Shown here: piece after piece, positions 5,946 through 37,971 of the stretch
Layout: every line of letters begins with the position of its first letter
How positions within the stretch are numbered: position 1 is the stretch's first letter
DNA from: Chloroflexota bacterium
GTDB lineage: Bacteria; Chloroflexota; Dehalococcoidia; Lucifugimonadales; Lucifugimonadaceae
Assembly: GCA_027618835.1 (NCBI GenBank)
Contig: JAQCHZ010000007.1
Coordinates: 1-64,000 of the forward strand
Length of the DNA stretch: 64,000 nucleotides
Direction of reading: 5' to 3'
Program-made: the position numbers and the translations under genes
The notes under the pieces: model-generated
Database searches by the model: none
What the model saw: only the letters and a program-made list of their open reading frames with translations
Told to the model about the DNA's origin: nothing

Positions 5946-7067
5946 CTAACCGAGCACTTCGGCTAATCTGGCTCCCAGAACGGGACCTTCGCCGGGCTGC
6001 AGGTTGATTGGGTTCACCGACATAGCGTCTTCATTGGCGTCGTACGTCATGAATATCCGTGGTTCACCATCGAGAAGTTGCTTCAGCATGGCTTTCGGAT
6101 CTCGCCCGGTTTGATCGGAGTTCAACCCGATAACCAGAGTAGGCACGTGGTACTTCGATGCCGAAAGTTTGACCGAGAGGTCAATTCCTTCAATTTTGCT
6201 CAGTAATTTCTGAATTGGCGCTAATGTTTCTCGGTACGACACGAACTGCGCTTCGTCGTCAGATTCCATAAACAGCTTCAATGCTGTGTAGAGTCCGATC
6301 ATTTCGTCTTTCGTAACCTTTTGGGGTCTACCGATCGAATGGTTCGGTGCCGTATTCAAAGTCGCTGCTTCTATCAGATCTTTTCTGCCGAACAACAGGC
6401 CAGCGCCCTGAGGTCCTCGAATGTATTTTCCGCCAGACATGGTCACCAAATCAGCGCCGTCGGAAATGAACTTTCGCAGATTAGATTTAGGTGGCAACAT
6501 TGCAGCTGCATCAACGATGACTGGTACGCCACGAGCGTGGGAAATATCAGCTACTTCGCGCAATGTAAGCCCGTTAGTCAGTACGCCAGGACCGAACAAA
6601 TATGCGACTGCGGCTGTGTTTTCGTTTATTGCGAGATCTAGTTCTTCAGCAAGACACCCATTTACGGAGCCTGCTTCGCTGAATTTGGCGCCAGCGAATG
6701 TGTACATATCGCTGTATCCGCCACGATGGATTTTCTGAATGGCTAATTCGTTTTTCATACCGTTCGTGTTAGGTAACTGGCGTACGAAGCCCACGTTTTT
6801 ACCCGTCATACATGCTGCCATCGAAAGCACAACACCACCGGCAGCTCCGCTCACGACCATACCACCTTCGGCACCGCTGATCTGAGCGATGTACTCGCCA
6901 ACTTTCTCATTTAGCTCTATCAGTCCTACAAAAGAAGTTGAGGCCATCGCCATGGCTTCAACAACTTCAGGCCGAGGCATTGAGCCGCCGAACGAAGTTA
7001 TCGTTCCTGCTGCGTGAATTACAGGCTTTATCCCAAGTTCATCGTAAACACGGTTGCTAATAGTCAA
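5946..7067 (-). CDS. SelA-like (DgaE-type) PLP-dependent enzyme, copy 2
   Basis: A 373-residue relative of copy 1. PLP lysine K214 is in SGGKYIRGPQGAG, the cofactor aspartate D186 in VIVDAAAMLPP, and the glycine-rich VVSGAAGGVV segment is near residue 71. The start is TTG (GAAAGAG nine nt upstream); no better start is visible and the N-terminus aligns with other copies. It follows the N-acyl-D-amino-acid deacylase-like gene by 23 nt and is the last gene of a five-gene minus-strand operon with a peptide transporter. This suggests it acts on the amino or hydroxy acid released by the deacylase. The exact reaction is not known. Confidence 0.85.
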   Translation of the reverse strand: MTISNRVYDELGIKPVIHAAGTITSFGGSMPRPEVVEAMAMASTSFVGLIELNEKVGEYIAQISGAEGGMVVSGAAGGVVLSMAACMTGKNVGFVRQLPNTNGMKNELAIQKIHRGGYSDMYTFAGAKFSEAGSVNGCLAEELDLAINENTAAVAYLFGPGVLTNGLTLREVADISHARGVPVIVDAAAMLPPKSNLRKFISDGADLVTMSGGKYIRGPQGAGLLFGRKDLIEAATLNTAPNHSIGRPQKVTKDEMIGLYTALKLFMESDDEAQFVSYRETLAPIQKLLSKIEGIDLSVKLSASKYHVPTLVIGLNSDQTGRDPKAMLKQLLDGEPRIFMTYDANEDAMSVNPINLQPGEGPVLGARLAEVLG

Positions 7068-18568: not shown

Positions 18569-19690
18569 ATGCCGAACGAACCACTTAATAACCCTGTTTA
18601 CGCAAGATTCGGCGTGGTGCCGCTTATCAATGCAGGTGGCACTCACACCACGCACGGTGGTTCATCAATGCGACCGGAAGTGGGAATGGCGATGAGCCTC
18701 GCTTCCGAATCGTATGTCGATTTGGTCGAGTTGAAACGTGCTACCGGGAAATTTGTTGCCGAAATCACCGGTGCCGAGGCCGGGCTAATTTGCTCAGGTG
18801 CCGCCGGGGGATTGGTTCTCGCTACCGCTGCAGTGATGACAGGAACAGACAGCGCAAAAATAATTCAGTTGCCAGATTCATCTGGAATGAAAAATGAGAT
18901 TCTAACCCAAGCCACGAATCCCGCTGGCTATCTGAAATGCCATGAATACGCAGGTGCGAAAGTTGTTTTTGTCGGGGACGAAACCGGAACGACACAAGAC
19001 CAACTCTCTGCGGCAATTACCGACCGGACAGCCGCCATCCTGTTCACATTTGCCTACGGCCCGAAAGTACCCGGACTCACCCTCCCTGAAGTAGTCGAAA
19101 TTGCCAAAATATCAGGAGTCCCGGTGATAGTCGATGGGGCGGCAATGCTTCCGCCAAAAACCAATCTGGCGAAGTACATCCGAGAGGGCGCTGATCTGGT
19201 GACGTTCTCAGGCGGCAAGTACATCGGCGGCCCCCAATCTGCCGGTCTTTTAGCCGGAAGGGCCGATTTGATCGAAGCAGCTTTGTTGAACAGCGGCCCC
19301 GGCATGGCTGTAGGACGTCCGCAAAAAGTCGGACGAGAAGAGATGATTGGCATGGCAACGGCGCTGCAGTTGTTTGTGGAATCTGATGAAGAAAATCGAC
19401 AAATATCAATGAGAAGCAAAGCTGAATACATCTGCGAACGACTCCAGGGAATCGACGGGGTTACTGCGACTGTTGAACAAGATTTTGAAAGATTCCATGT
19501 TCCAAACTGTGTAATTAACTTCGAACAAGGCGAGCAGGAAATCGATCGAGTTTGGAAAGCTCTCCACGAGGGAGAACCAAGGATCTACATCGCTCGAAAC
19601 CACGGCGGTTTGGCGGCCAATATGGCCAATGTACGCGATGGCGAAGAAGAAATCATCGCCCAACGTTTAGCCGCTGTGCTTGCGAACTAA
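18569..19690 (+). CDS. SelA-like (DgaE-type) PLP-dependent enzyme, copy 4
   Basis: A 373-residue enzyme with K217 in FSGGKYIGGPQSAG, D189 in VIVDGAAMLPP and the VVPLINAGGTHTTHGG N-terminus. It resembles copies 1 and 2 more than its divergent neighbour. The start is ATG with AAAGGA seven nt upstream; an upstream TTG frame of 13 codons is rejected. It appears monocistronic. With its divergent partner it may handle two stereoisomers or two related substrates under common regulation, which is inference. Confidence 0.85.
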   Translation: MPNEPLNNPVYARFGVVPLINAGGTHTTHGGSSMRPEVGMAMSLASESYVDLVELKRATGKFVAEITGAEAGLICSGAAGGLVLATAAVMTGTDSAKIIQLPDSSGMKNEILTQATNPAGYLKCHEYAGAKVVFVGDETGTTQDQLSAAITDRTAAILFTFAYGPKVPGLTLPEVVEIAKISGVPVIVDGAAMLPPKTNLAKYIREGADLVTFSGGKYIGGPQSAGLLAGRADLIEAALLNSGPGMAVGRPQKVGREEMIGMATALQLFVESDEENRQISMRSKAEYICERLQGIDGVTATVEQDFERFHVPNCVINFEQGEQEIDRVWKALHEGEPRIYIARNHGGLAANMANVRDGEEEIIAQRLAAVLAN

Positions 19691-22319: not shown

Positions 22320-23450
22320 ATGTCCTTAGATAGCACGACAGGTTCTGCCCAGTTCGACGAGCTCGGGCTAAAAAGGGTTGTCAACGGCAGAAGCTGGGTG
22401 ACGATACTCGGCGGAAGCCGTATGCCAGCCGAAGTTCAACAGGCAATGGCCGACGCATCGAACACGTTCATCGATTTTCACGAGTTGAATAAGCGTGCCG
22501 GTGAGATGATCGCGCAATATACCGGGGCGGAGGCAGGCCTCGTAGTTGCTGGTGCATCGGCGGGTCTTCTGATTCAGGCTGCAGCGTGTATGGCAGGTTC
22601 TGATCCTGATCGGATACTGAAGTTGCCTGATACGACCGGGATGAAAGACGAACTCTTGATTTTCGAGAATCATCGTTTCGGGTTCGAAATTTGTTACCGA
22701 ACTGCCGTAGCAACATTGAAGGAGTGGGGCAAAGGCGAAGAAACGCTGGTGGAGCAACTCATTGCATCGATCGACGAAAAAACGGCAGCGGTCTCGTACG
22801 TATTTGGACCTTGGATGTCCTGCGGTTTATCGCTTCGGGAGGTTGTGGAGATTGCCCATGAAAAGAATGTACTGGTGATTGTGGCTGCTGCTGCCATGCT
22901 ACCTTCTGCCGATAATTTGACCCATTACATTGCCGAGGGAGCAGACCTCGTGACGTTTTCGGGTGGCAAAGGTCTTCGTGGTCCGCAATCGACCGGAATA
23001 TTGGCTGGAAGAGCTGACTTGGTCGAAGCAGCACGACTCAACATGTCGCCCCACGCTTCAGTTGGTCGAGGATCGAAAGTTGCCAAAGAAGAAATCGCTG
23101 CAGTATTGGCTGCGCTTAAGCGATTCGTATCGATTGACCACGAGGCTGAATGGGCTACGTGGAGAACGTGATCTGAGACGATTGCAGCGGTTGGCAGTGG
23201 GCGAGACGGCCTGCGTACCGTTATTGAGGATGGCGATCCGAATCGCCAAGGCCCTACAGCTGTTTTCTACTTCGAGGAAAATTGGGACGGTCCTTCTTCG
23301 GTCGTAATACAAGAGCGTCTTGCGGCCCTTGATCCAGCAATTCACGTTGGAGTCGGGAATTATGGCGATGAGCTCTATGTCAGTCCCGTGGCAATCGAAC
23401 CCGGAGAAGCTGAATTCGTGGCTGAAGCTCTTGGTTCGGAAATGGGATAG
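22320..23450 (+). pseudogene. SelA-like PLP enzyme, inactivated copy 5
   Basis: Across its whole length this is the closest paralogue of the SelA-like gene at the left edge and has the same codon numbering (376 codons). Two defects are visible. Codon 284 is TGA (23169-23171) where the paralogue has Trp (WRGWSE versus WRT-stop-SE); the frame is otherwise intact to a TAG stop. Also, the cofactor-binding pair D189-G190 in VIVDGAAMLPP has become Ala-Ala in VIVAAAAMLPS, which should abolish normal PLP chemistry. PLP lysine K217 remains. The ATG has GGAGAG upstream. The TGA replaces Trp, not Cys, and no SECIS-like hairpin follows, so selenocysteine is unlikely. Confidence 0.85.
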
Positions 23451-33373: not shown

Positions 33374-33393
33374 CCACAGATTGGAATCTGTGG
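33374..33393. other. Perfect short hairpin upstream of the selenoprotein gene
   Basis: CCACAGATT and AATCTGTGG pair perfectly around GG. No T run follows. It lies between the DUF885 gene and the selenoprotein gene, and could be an mRNA-stabilising hairpin or an operator. It does not fold as a tRNA. Confidence 0.45.
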
Positions 33394-33451
33394 AGCGTCA
33401 TTTGAGATTGATAGCCATATCTGACCGAGTGTCGATTCGAAGAGGAATTAT

Positions 33452-33745
33452 TTGGAACTTCTGATAACAGATGCAGCCCGAGAGTACCTAGACCGCCGTG
33501 AACGGCCTGTCGCTCTCGATTATCTCGCCGGACTTGGCTGAGGTGGTCACGCCTCGGTATCGGTCGATACCTACGCTAAGAAAGCCAACAAAACGGCTTA
33601 CCAAACGGTGAAAGATAAGGGCGTAGAGATTCTTATTTCGAAAAACCTCGCCTCGAAAGCCGCTGCCGTCCTAATCGAACAAAAGAAGTTCCTCTTCTTC
33701 AAATGGTTGTCCGTCAGAGCACAGCTCTACGGCCACGGCACCTGA
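33452..33745 (+). CDS. Putative small selenoprotein with in-frame TGA (HesB-like, CC/Se-motif type)
   Basis: A 97-codon frame begins at TTG with GAGGA five nt upstream. It reads ELLITDAAREYLDRR, then VALDYLAGLG, then TGA at codon 30 (33539-33541), then GGHASVSVDTYAKKANK. It continues through GVEILISKNLASKAAAVLIE and KFLFFKWLSVRAQLYGHGT to a terminal TGA. The pattern (leading helix, a G-x-G-Cys/Sec-GG turn, a V-x-V strand, GVxILIS, and KFLFFKWLSV at the end) resembles small HesB-like proteins where this position is Cys or Sec. A hairpin of SECIS geometry follows the TGA. Selenocysteine insertion is inferred; a nonsense mutation is the alternative. Codons after the TGA remain fully coding, which argues against decay. 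A terminator follows. Confidence 0.7.
33556..33571 (+). promoter_or_regulatory. Candidate bacterial SECIS element
   Basis: GGTATC-GGTC-GATACC is a perfect 6-bp stem with loop GGTC, starting 14 nt after the TGA codon, so the loop G is base +21. The E. coli fdhF SECIS has its GGUC-containing loop at nearly the same distance, and SelB requires an exposed G and U there. Stem, loop sequence and spacing therefore all fit. Confidence 0.65.
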
Positions 33746-33796
33746 AGCCACGGCTAACCCTCGGCCGTGCGCCGAACTCAAATCTACCTGAACAAC

Positions 33797-33833
33797 AAAA
33801 AGCCTCGAGTCCAAACACGGAAGCGAGGCTTTT
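33797..33833. terminator. Bidirectional terminator
   Basis: AAAAGCCTCG (33797-33806) pairs with CGAGGCTTTT (33824-33833). The T run works on the plus strand for the selenoprotein gene, and the A run works on the minus strand for the small membrane protein gene. Confidence 0.75.
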
Positions 33834-33863: not shown

Positions 33864-34162
33864 CTACGAGAACGATTCGTAGAGTCCGCCGACTACCAGT
33901 CCGAAGATGATGTGCACTCCTAGCGCACCCATTGCGGTCGCTTCGCCAAGCTTTAATGTGAAGAATCCTGGGGCTTCAACCGCACCGTCACGAATCCCTC
34001 GATGGAGGGAAGAACTGAGCATTCCGAAGAACATGCCTGTGCCCATGAAATGAACGAGTCCAAAGAATATTCCGATTGCGAAGCTGCTATCGATATCGAG
34101 CCAAAGATAGAACGCTGCGTGAGCCGAAGCGCTGAGTGGCTATAGATCAAGGCATCAGACAT
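33864..34162 (-). pseudogene. Small polytopic membrane protein with a frameshift
   Basis: An ATG after GAGAG starts MSDALIYSHSA. Near 34130-34140 the useful frame changes, and the protein continues as ASAHAAFYLWLDIDSSFAIG, then IFFGLVHFMGTGMFFGMLSS, ending with MGALGVHIIFGLVVGGLYES. Two or three membrane spans are evident. A 60-residue frame alone (from 34046) would lack the first helix. Either a one-base indel inactivated a ~99-residue protein or there is a sequence error. The family is not recognised. Confidence 0.45.
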
Positions 34163-35797: not shown

Positions 35798-36880
35798 CTA
35801 TTGTCTAACGATCTGGTCTAAGCCAAGCCTGCTCGTCTCGGAATCGAACCACTCGACAACCTCGCGGTGAAGAGGAATGCCATCCCTCTCACGTATCTCG
35901 GTCTCCTCATGCTCAGGAAGACCCGCGTAGTACACCCGGTCGTGGCCCTTCGCTGGCGGCGTGTTGACCAAGTAGGTCAAGAACTCGTCCATCGAGCCTT
36001 TGAACTCGGCGACATCTCGGAAAGCGTCAATGCTGAACGCCGCCACGAACTGTGAACCGTTCCCCGGTGGCGTGCTTATTCCAAAGAGACCCGCAGACAA
36101 AATTCCTGAGAAAACTTGACCGATAACGGCCATCCCGTAGCCTTTGTGAGAACCGAGATCGCGAGTCGAACCCCACGGAAGCAGTCGTAGTCCGTCCGGA
36201 ACTTCCTGTTCCACCATGATCGGAGTACCTTCTTCGTCAGCCATCAATCCCGGCAGCAATTTGGCACCTGTGCGCCTGAGAAGTTGAATTTTGTTTGCGG
36301 CAACTGATGAAGAGGAAATATCTAAAACAAACGGTGGCATCTTGTCGGCAGGAACCGCCCATGCATGAGGTACCGCTCCAACCCTTGGTTCAGCTCCGTA
36401 GGTAGGAACCATTACGGCACCGCCACCAGTGATCGCGTAACCGATCATGTCGTGCGGCATCGCCCGCATTGCGTGATACGCCATCATCCCAGCGTGGTTG
36501 CTGTTGTGGATGGTCACAGCACCGATGCCGACCTTCTTAGCCTTCTCGATTGCTATGTCCATCGCCTTTGGGCAAATAACAAGTCCGTGCGCTCTGTCAG
36601 CATCAATAGTTGCCACAGCCGAAGTCTCTTTTGTGATCTTCCAATCCGGAGTCGAGTTGATCTTCCCGTCGGCGAACGCCTGCACGTACGCCCGCAACAT
36701 GTTCGAAACGCCGTGAGTCTCGCAACCTCGAATATCGGCAGTGACCAGACCGTCAGACGCCAGCTCAGCGTCTTCGCGTGACATGCCCATCACTTCAAAA
36801 ATATCGGCAGTGGTCTTGAAAAGATCCTCCCGACGAATCATCACTCGGTCGGCTTCTGGAACGTGAAAGTGTTCTAGCAT
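35798..36880 (-). CDS. Ldh-family (malate/L-lactate/ureidoglycolate-type) dehydrogenase, copy A
   Basis: A 360-residue NAD(P)-dependent oxidoreductase of the YlbC/YiaK/ComC type, not related to classical lactate dehydrogenase. Visible are RGCETHGVSNM near residue 49, IGAVTIHNSNHAGMMAYH (catalytic His region), PFVLDISSSSVAANKIQLL and GSHKGYGMAVIGQVFSG. It likely interconverts a 2-hydroxy acid and a 2-oxo acid. The start is set at the ATG beginning LEHFHVPEAD by alignment with its tandem paralogue. It lies 14 nt after copy B, so the two are cotranscribed. Confidence 0.88.
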   Translation of the reverse strand: MLEHFHVPEADRVMIRREDLFKTTADIFEVMGMSREDAELASDGLVTADIRGCETHGVSNMLRAYVQAFADGKINSTPDWKITKETSAVATIDADRAHGLVICPKAMDIAIEKAKKVGIGAVTIHNSNHAGMMAYHAMRAMPHDMIGYAITGGGAVMVPTYGAEPRVGAVPHAWAVPADKMPPFVLDISSSSVAANKIQLLRRTGAKLLPGLMADEEGTPIMVEQEVPDGLRLLPWGSTRDLGSHKGYGMAVIGQVFSGILSAGLFGISTPPGNGSQFVAAFSIDAFRDVAEFKGSMDEFLTYLVNTPPAKGHDRVYYAGLPEHEETEIRERDGIPLHREVVEWFDSETSRLGLDQIVRQ

Positions 36881-36894
36881 TGTTCTTCTACTTC

Positions 36895-37971
36895 CTATCG
36901 TTCCAGTGGTGAAAGATCGAATTCGTTGGTTGCGGAATCGAACCATTCGACCACTTCGTGGTGAAGCGGGATGCCGCGTTCGTGGCGATCGATCGATTCT
37001 TCGTGCTCGGGCAGACCAGCGTAGTAAACGCGATCGTGACCCGGTGCCGGGGGCGTCTCTCGTAAATACTTCATGAAATTGTCCATCGAATCCTTGAACC
37101 GCTGGACATCTGTGAATGCCTCGATCGAATAAGCGGCTACGAAGTGCGACATGTGACCGCCTTCGTAGGGGCCGAACGCTCCATCGGAAAGAATTCCACC
37201 GAAAATCTGCGCAACAGCGCTCAGACCGTAGCCCTTGTGCGATCCAAGCTCACGGGTTGCACCGTTTGGCAGCACGATGTTGTCGGGCGGAATCTCTCGT
37301 TCGTCCATGATCGGATTTCCTTCAGCGTCAGCCATTATTCCAGGGATGGTCATCGAGTTCATTCGACGCAGAAGTTCGATCTTATTGGCAGCCACAGATG
37401 AGGAAGAAATATCGAGTATAAACGGCGGTTCTTTGTCGCCGGGAACAGCCCAGGCGTGAGGATTGGGAGCGAGACGAGGCTCTGCACCAAATGTAGGCGG
37501 CATGCTCTGTCCGCCAGCCGTGATTGCGTAGCCGATCATATCGTGAGGGAGCGCCATCATTGCGTGGTAGGCGATCATCCCGGCGTGCCGACCGTTGCTC
37601 ATCGTGATCGCACCAATGCCTGTGTCTCGGGCCTTTTCGATCGCCAGCTTCATGACCTGAGGAATAACGGCAATGCCGAGTCCACGGTCGCAATCGACGT
37701 TCGCCGTTGTTGGGGTTTCTCGGGTGATCGTCCAGTTAGGCGTCGGGTTGATAAAGCCTTCAGCTACACCAGCTATGTAGCGACGCATCATGTTCGAAAC
37801 GCCGTGAGTGTCGACGCCTCGGGTATCGGACAACAGCAACACGTCGGTCGCTTGCCATGCGTCCTGTTTGGAGAAACCGATCTTCAGAAACAGTTCGTTG
37901 ACGGTCTTGCGAAGAGCGTCGGGCATGATCCGAACTTCGTCTTCTTCAGCAACATGAAAATGTTCGAGCAT
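36895..37971 (-). CDS. Ldh-family dehydrogenase, copy B
   Basis: A 358-residue tandem paralogue starting LEHFHVAEEDE. It shares the motifs RGVDTHGVSNM, IGAITMSNGRHAGMIAYH, PFILDISSSSVAANKIELL and GSHKGYGLSAVAQIFGG. The residue after the catalytic-loop NSNH/NGRH differs (Ser-Asn versus Gly-Arg), which may alter substrate preference. The ATG start is clear. It is the first gene of the pair. Tandem duplication with retained motifs suggests two related hydroxy-acid activities. Confidence 0.88.
   Translation of the reverse strand: MLEHFHVAEEDEVRIMPDALRKTVNELFLKIGFSKQDAWQATDVLLLSDTRGVDTHGVSNMMRRYIAGVAEGFINPTPNWTITRETPTTANVDCDRGLGIAVIPQVMKLAIEKARDTGIGAITMSNGRHAGMIAYHAMMALPHDMIGYAITAGGQSMPPTFGAEPRLAPNPHAWAVPGDKEPPFILDISSSSVAANKIELLRRMNSMTIPGIMADAEGNPIMDEREIPPDNIVLPNGATRELGSHKGYGLSAVAQIFGGILSDGAFGPYEGGHMSHFVAAYSIEAFTDVQRFKDSMDNFMKYLRETPPAPGHDRVYYAGLPEHEESIDRHERGIPLHHEVVEWFDSATNEFDLSPLER

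Follow-up and report, generated by a model that had tools for sequence, protein, structure and literature searches.

What does a small bacterial gene encode when a TGA stands inside its frame, and where does such a gene end? Both questions are raised by a frame at 33452-33745 in a 64,000-nucleotide (nt) stretch of DNA from a marine Chloroflexota bacterium of the SAR202 type, of the family Lucifugimonadaceae (contig JAQCHZ010000007.1, positions 1 to 64,000; hereafter the window). From a TTG start at 33452, the frame reaches a TGA at codon 30 in a GLG-TGA-GGH context, continues for 67 further codons and meets another TGA at 33743-33745, so that its translation reads LELLITDAAREYLDRRERPVALDYLAGLG-U-GGHASVSVDTY...GHGT-TGA. 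An earlier note, made from the letters alone, had proposed a 97-codon gene for a HesB-like selenoprotein, with selenocysteine (Sec, U) inserted at codon 30. Judged from its sequence and that of its relatives, the gene almost certainly encodes a selenium-containing protein. The 97-codon frame is real, but its end is not, since the frame passes the TGA at 33743-33745 and runs to a TAA at 33755-33757, giving a protein of 101 residues. Comparison with relatives strongly supports the reading of both UGA 30 and UGA 98 as Sec via SelB and tRNA-Sec, and the product is very probably a two-Sec protein with a HesB fold. It contains no Cys. The elements of this gene are as follows.

33452..33757, + strand: coding sequence of 101 codons with two predicted Sec codons, TTG start and TAA stop at 33755-33757 (start and end alike in relatives)
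33539..33541, + strand: predicted first Sec codon, TGA, residue 30 (GLGUGGH; TGA column conserved in relatives)
33556..33571, + strand: SECIS-like (selenocysteine insertion sequence) hairpin 1, GGTATC-GGTC-GATACC (loop at +21; pairing in relatives; fold z score -2.83)
33743..33745, + strand: putative second Sec codon, TGA, residue 98 (TGA in 30/30 family rows; Sec/Cys exchange farther out)
33746..33754, + strand: predicted coding tail Ser-His-Gly after Sec98 (Ser and His codons vary synonymously only; His in 30/30 family rows)
33761..33775, + strand: SECIS-like hairpin 2, TCGGC-CGTGC-GCCGA, downstream of the final stop (loop at +21 from the second TGA; covariation; RNAalifold)

Codon 30 and its hairpin

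Searching the order with the profile of the family NF041239, we obtained 45 matches in 43 of 250 genomes, each with one TGA; at E<=0.01 they did not include the window gene. When 30 of these loci were aligned with the window, the TGA fell into one column in 31/31 rows and was followed by the hairpin GGTATC-GGTC-GATACC, GGTGTC-GGTC-GACACC or a near variant. A profile built from these rows (A1, the window being one of them) found the gene in 31 of the 76 genomes of the window's family. Codon 30 is TGA with a matching hairpin in 30/30 family rows (29 loci beside the own copy, plus the window), and it is TGA in all 15 class-level loci outside the order and in L202. The 31st family genome, G488, lies outside the 30 rows and was read separately (L202, L120); it has both TGAs. 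Separate assemblies agree on TGA at codon 30.

Hairpin 1 begins 14 nt past the TGA and has a 6-bp stem and a GGTC loop from +21. Across 28 distinct rows 96.4% of 168 cells are paired, with two pairs changed on both sides, and pairing is kept although the same bases encode the conserved VSVDT. The 42 bases from the first TGA fold at -17.7 kcal/mol (2/200 shuffles as low), compared with a published SECIS limit of -7.5 kcal/mol or lower. As criterion for a bacterial SECIS we took a loop of 3-9 nt, a stem of 4-16 bp, a G in the first two loop positions and a distance of 16-37 nt from the UGA; the same distance and G placement are given in a 2026 review (PMC13188914). Both hairpin 1 (GGUC, 6 bp) and hairpin 2 (CGUGC, 5 bp) have these properties, each with its loop at +21. 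Beyond the first TGA, codons 31-97 of the window differ from those of L067 by 14 synonymous changes and 1 non-synonymous change, and from those of L063 by 31.5 and 5.5, respectively. Codons downstream of the first TGA are thus under purifying selection. In these respects, the codon context, the hairpin geometry and the coding quality of the 67 codons past the TGA, the earlier note has held up. Among the observations that it had named as counting against it were relatives with neither Cys nor Sec at position 30 and a genome without selB or selC; all rows read have TGA, and selB and tRNA-Sec are both present.

Selenocysteine machinery

The genome to which the window belongs (2.41 Mb, 41 contigs, 88.9% complete) encodes selB on the window's own contig (318 bits, over the cut-off), selA (513 bits), selD (366 bits; L056, G000:C41:13971-14897) and a tRNA-Sec with anticodon TCA (66.4 bits), that is, the full set of selA, selB, selD and tRNA-Sec that we looked for as the mark of a bacterial selenoprotein producer. 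The selD gene is itself a selenoprotein gene, with an in-frame TGA in ATCAG-U-AGKLS. Four SelA-like stretches below the cut-off (903-1646, 6201-7034, 18620-19411 and 22701-23132) are probably paralogous pyridoxal phosphate-dependent enzymes.

Within the family, selB exceeds the cut-off in 55 of 76 genomes, including 30 of the 31 that carry the gene; the exception, G500, is 56% complete. Another 25 family genomes have selB without the selenoprotein gene, suggesting that the gene is an optional user of the Sec machinery.

The apparent stop codon

The position equivalent to 33743-33745 is TGA in 30/30 family rows, and TGA is the rarest stop, ending 11 of 56 long open reading frames (ORFs) in the window and L025 and 58 of 236 in loci L091-L120 (ORFs of at least 150 codons being taken as proxies for genes). 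Between this TGA and a second stop, which varies (TAA 15, TGA 11, TAG 4), lie two to four codons, giving the tails U-S-H, U-S-H-G, U-S-H-S, U-T-N-H, U-G-K-S-H, U-S-A-S-H and others. Tail lengths vary by whole codons, with His last or penultimate in 30/30. In the two genera with U-S-H (19/19 rows), Ser is AGC in 12 and AGT in 7, and His is CAC in 18 and CAT in 1, so that change is synonymous only. Both TGAs are also present in all 30 loci of a named collection (L120, where the match begins at residue 26, included), whose names are Chloroflexi, Chloroflexota or Dehalococcoidia, apart from the complete genome of Candidatus Lucifugimonas marina JH1073. It is strongly supported by these comparisons that the gene extends past 33745 and that the TGA at 33743-33745 would be the second Sec codon, residue 98. 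One row, L076, has an extra TGA upstream of this site: in a single metagenome-assembled genome (L076/L118), the conserved Trp codon 85, between both Sec codons, reads TGA, probably by assembly or sequencing error.

Hairpin 2 lies beyond the final stop, and its loop is usually C-G-U-G-N (exceptions L083 and L074). In alignment A2 (30 rows) 91.1% of 180 cells are paired and five of six pairs have changed on both sides. The covariation score of 0.623 exceeds those of shuffles (0.211) and of slid pairings (0.111 or less); pair and pair-type counts alone are not clearly above shuffles (81 and 152 of 500). RNAalifold chose the same six pairs on the 58-column MAFFT alignment A10. Alignments A2, A4 and A10 hold all 29 family loci beside the window, A3 holds 24, and A5 holds 29/30 loci, L118 being omitted for its extra TGA at Trp85. 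Because most of the region is outside the reading frame, this pattern is not explicable by codons. When bases +11 to +50 are folded, the minimum-energy structure contains the hairpin in 26/30 rows. The distance from the second TGA to the start of the loop, +21 in the window and between +18 and +28 across the family, is inside the 16-37 nt range. Alone, it has an energy of -7.4 kcal/mol in the window, and 21-nt segments reach -7.5 kcal/mol or lower in 19/30 rows. A stem of at least 5 bp with its loop at +17 to +24 follows 26/30 of the second TGAs, compared with 18% of 291 ordinary stops.

Exchange of Sec and Cys in relatives

A true Sec site is usually marked by Sec/Cys pairs and by the lack of a SECIS in the Cys forms. 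Profile A7 gave 91 listed matches in 85 of the 250 genomes of the order, each with at least one TGA. His-rich tails with Sec occur in other families of the order (HHHSLA-U-QH at two loci, HAPGAT-U-SHKL, HLHSPA-U-RH, HLHGAA-U-AHR, HRHAPT-U-RH and HLHGPA-U-QH), and L121 has a tail with Cys, HFHGPA-C-TH. Over the class, profile A6 found the gene in 26 of 393 genomes; among the 15 loci read outside the order, 11 carry Sec in the tail and 4 (L187, L188, L192 and L195) carry Cys there. A stem of at least 5 bp follows the TGA in 16 of 18 Sec rows (in odd register in L127; none in L124 and L197) versus 0 of 5 Cys rows. The five Cys rows lie apart from one another in a 41-row tree, implying five changes, two of them forced by well-supported branches. 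L126, which has no tail, and L136, L138, L143 and L146, which are of another type with different ends, were left out of the Sec/Cys count. All three profiles A1, A6 and A7 recover the window gene, which is a row of A1 and A6, while a single-protein search with P0001 in 400 genomes of the phylum returned only the own copy.

Other relatives have different C-termini. Those of the f123/f110 type keep Sec30 with a tail that has neither Sec nor Cys, and in the order, TAA or TAG closes the frame in most relatives of the one-TGA type. Six genomes (G597, G598, G604, G607, G614 and G615) have two adjacent matches each, tandem copies of the one-Sec type with a TGA apiece. L122 and L123 (family f2), which end in C-P-E-TGA-R-[T/R]-TAG, were considered as Cys forms from their E/D-C-P-E-TGA and dropped, as each has a hairpin of 7 bp some 18 nt beyond its own TGA; as a guess from two sequences, their tail may be C-P-E-U, a possible CxxU variant.

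Family relations and fold

The best family match is NF041239, at 29.9 bits for the 97-residue frame and 30.9 bits for the 101 residues, with a cut-off of 40. Scores for the HesB-like selenoprotein families also stay below their cut-offs (TIGR01911, 14.6-14.7 bits versus 66.35; NF038090, IscA_HesB_Se, 15 versus 85), as does that for PF01521 (13.1 bits versus a gathering score of 26.3), which matches 10/28 A1 members and 4/26 A9 members at E<=1. The predicted fold matches best HI1723, SufA and IscA in the PDB, none at E 0.001, and the match list leaves other folds possible; none of the ten best structural matches is thioredoxin-like, in a model of modest confidence. A sequence search of PDB chains gave no match better than E 0.078, and a profile comparison of A6 with A8 aligned 13 columns only. 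Set against the A-type carrier of the own genome, with the tail aligned by eye, Sec30 and Sec98-x-His100 fall at about the positions of Cys35 and Cys99-Gly-Cys101. The model thus gives some, though weaker, support to an IscA/SufA/HesB (A-type carrier) fold, and of the HesB likeness that the earlier note had drawn, a remote relation stands while membership in the known HesB-like families does not. Its call of a selenoprotein is borne out by the Sec machinery and the conserved TGA and hairpin, and the gene is near an already recognised selenoprotein family.

Proposed function and alternative readings

In the mechanism that we propose, hairpin 1, inside the coding sequence, would direct UGA 30, and hairpin 2, past the real stop, would direct UGA 98, each with its loop 21 nt on. 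Sec30, in a G-U-G-G turn, together with Sec98 and His100 (perhaps His95), would stand where an A-type carrier has Cys35 and Cys99-Gly-Cys101, and Sec30, Sec98 and His100 could bind iron, an iron-sulfur (Fe-S) cluster or another soft metal, making the protein a selenolate/His metal carrier or store. We infer a metal-binding role for these three residues at a little under even confidence. The full proposal, an A-type (IscA/HesB-fold) carrier with both UGAs read, its cluster thiolates replaced by Sec30, Sec98 and His100 and its cargo iron, Fe-S or a soft metal held by selenolate, is a tentative one. Its main rival is a redox role, in which the same two-Sec protein would work free of metal as a thiol/selenol oxidoreductase or reductant through a Sec30-Sec98 diselenide (a selenenylsulfide in the Cys98 forms), and we regard this as quite possible, if short of even. 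A redox function is assumed for most prokaryotic selenoproteins, according to the available part of PMC13188914; moreover, the lack of Cys means that both Sec could pair, and the C-P-E-TGA ends of L122 and L123 may be a CxxU-like motif. Set against a diselenide are the absence of thioredoxin-like folds among the ten best matches of that modest model, two His (the invariant His95 and one near Sec98), for which it has no need, and the f123/f110-type relatives, which keep Sec30 without a Sec or Cys in the tail.

The two-Sec reading has also to be weighed against simpler ones. From the window alone, the simplest is that codon 30 is the only Sec codon, the TGA at 33743-33745 being an ordinary stop and the next hairpin an element of mRNA stability or termination. 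The TAA or TAG ends of most one-TGA-type relatives in the order favor this, and several observations on hairpin 2 weigh against its role in Sec insertion: left unconstrained, the whole of region 2 in the window takes another fold (-13.7 kcal/mol), the conserved hairpin appearing at its -7.4 kcal/mol once 9 bases are omitted, and it is broken beside the loop in L064 and L077 and opened in L089. Yet the site is invariably the rarest stop, Ser and His codons beyond it vary synonymously only in 19/19 rows, Cys occupies it in five relatives that all lack the hairpin, and a separate terminator-like repeat lies farther downstream, so that we consider a single Sec improbable. Far less probable still is a pseudogene or a sequencing error, with TGA in place of a sense codon. 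The frame is one that gene finders would split, and the extra TGA at the Trp codon of L076/L118 may be just such an error, but TGA recurs at the same codon in relatives from many separate assemblies, including the complete genome L098, which contradicts this explanation for codon 30, and non-synonymous changes past the TGA are few. Equally remote is a general sense meaning of UGA (a Trp or Gly code), to which two in-frame TGAs within one small gene might point; it is contradicted by the 11 of 56 long ORFs that end in TGA, and tRNA-Sec with its TCA anticodon, selA, selB and selD are present.

Gene surroundings

Sequences resembling the ribosome site and terminator named by the earlier note can both be seen.

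33441..33446, + strand: Shine-Dalgarno-like AGAGGA, 5 nt upstream of the TTG (from sequence)
33800..33833, + strand: intrinsic-terminator-like repeat AAGCCTCG...CGAGGCTTTT (from sequence, by eye)

Many of the 30 named-collection loci have purine-rich stretches upstream of the start. Between the upstream gene and the selenoprotein gene is a perfect inverted repeat, CCACAGATT-GG-AATCTGTGG (33374-33393, by eye), possibly an operator or hairpin. The neighbourhood is well kept within the genus, except in L099; the downstream ORFs at 33864 and 34216 are also found in the next genus, at several of the loci L104-L107 and L117; otherwise the neighbourhood differs. Eight neighbours scanned at six further loci belong to unrelated families and thus give no operon clue to function. 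An Rfam search of the window had no match at the gathering score. Farther downstream, two similar ORFs on the minus strand (35798-36946 and 36895-37971) overlap head to tail, likely a tandem duplication of a dehydrogenase-like gene, as judged by eye.

Comparison with known systems

Within the literature on HesB-like selenoproteins, Chloroflexi, SAR202, Dehalococcoidia, IscA and C-terminal or double selenoproteins (including PMC1794560 and PMC1088965), judged mainly by titles and the openings of abstracts and with subscription papers mostly outside this scope, no description of the protein came up, and "seleno" is absent from the text of the SAR202 cultivation paper PMC10444878. If our reading is right, the small HesB-related selenoproteins extend to a two-Sec form that occurs in several families within the class of the window. 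Its presence in a cultured SAR202 bacterium, Candidatus Lucifugimonas marina, makes the claim testable in culture. The exchange of Sec and Cys at residue 98, with Cys forms read without the hairpin, offers a natural experiment on the gain and loss of a SECIS. More generally, annotation can miss a C-terminal Sec when its codon is mistaken for the stop and its SECIS falls in the apparent 3' untranslated region.

Among known selenoproteins, the closest relation is to NF041239, the CC/Se motif family (seleno)protein first predicted in Moorella thermoacetica. The window protein aligns with it through residues 1-89 over 91 positions, and 15/15 A6 members match it at E<=0.1 (best, 4.6e-13). In the available part of PMC13188914, which counts 119 prokaryotic selenoprotein families, NF041239 is listed with one Sec in CxxU and HesB-like proteins with one Sec in UxGP, and the two-Sec entries are other families. 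By these entries, the window protein differs from NF041239 in its second Sec, which is C-terminal, and in its lack of Cys. Like the HesB-like selenoproteins (TIGR01911, NF038090; weak matches over residues 20-88 and 9-79), it is small and HesB-related with a Sec in its first half, but it has UGGH instead of the listed UxGP, and two Sec instead of one. Two Sec in one bacterial protein are shared with MbdU (NF045648), termed metal-binding in that part of the review's table, and MduS, both of other families as set apart by their listed names and motifs. Compared to the A-type carriers IscA, SufA and HesB (PF01521), with three Cys in a C...C-G-C arrangement, it has Sec30, Sec98 and His100, in a sequence below the Pfam cut-off. 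Should both Sec indeed bind metal, the protein would be a selenium version of the central fold of Fe-S biogenesis.
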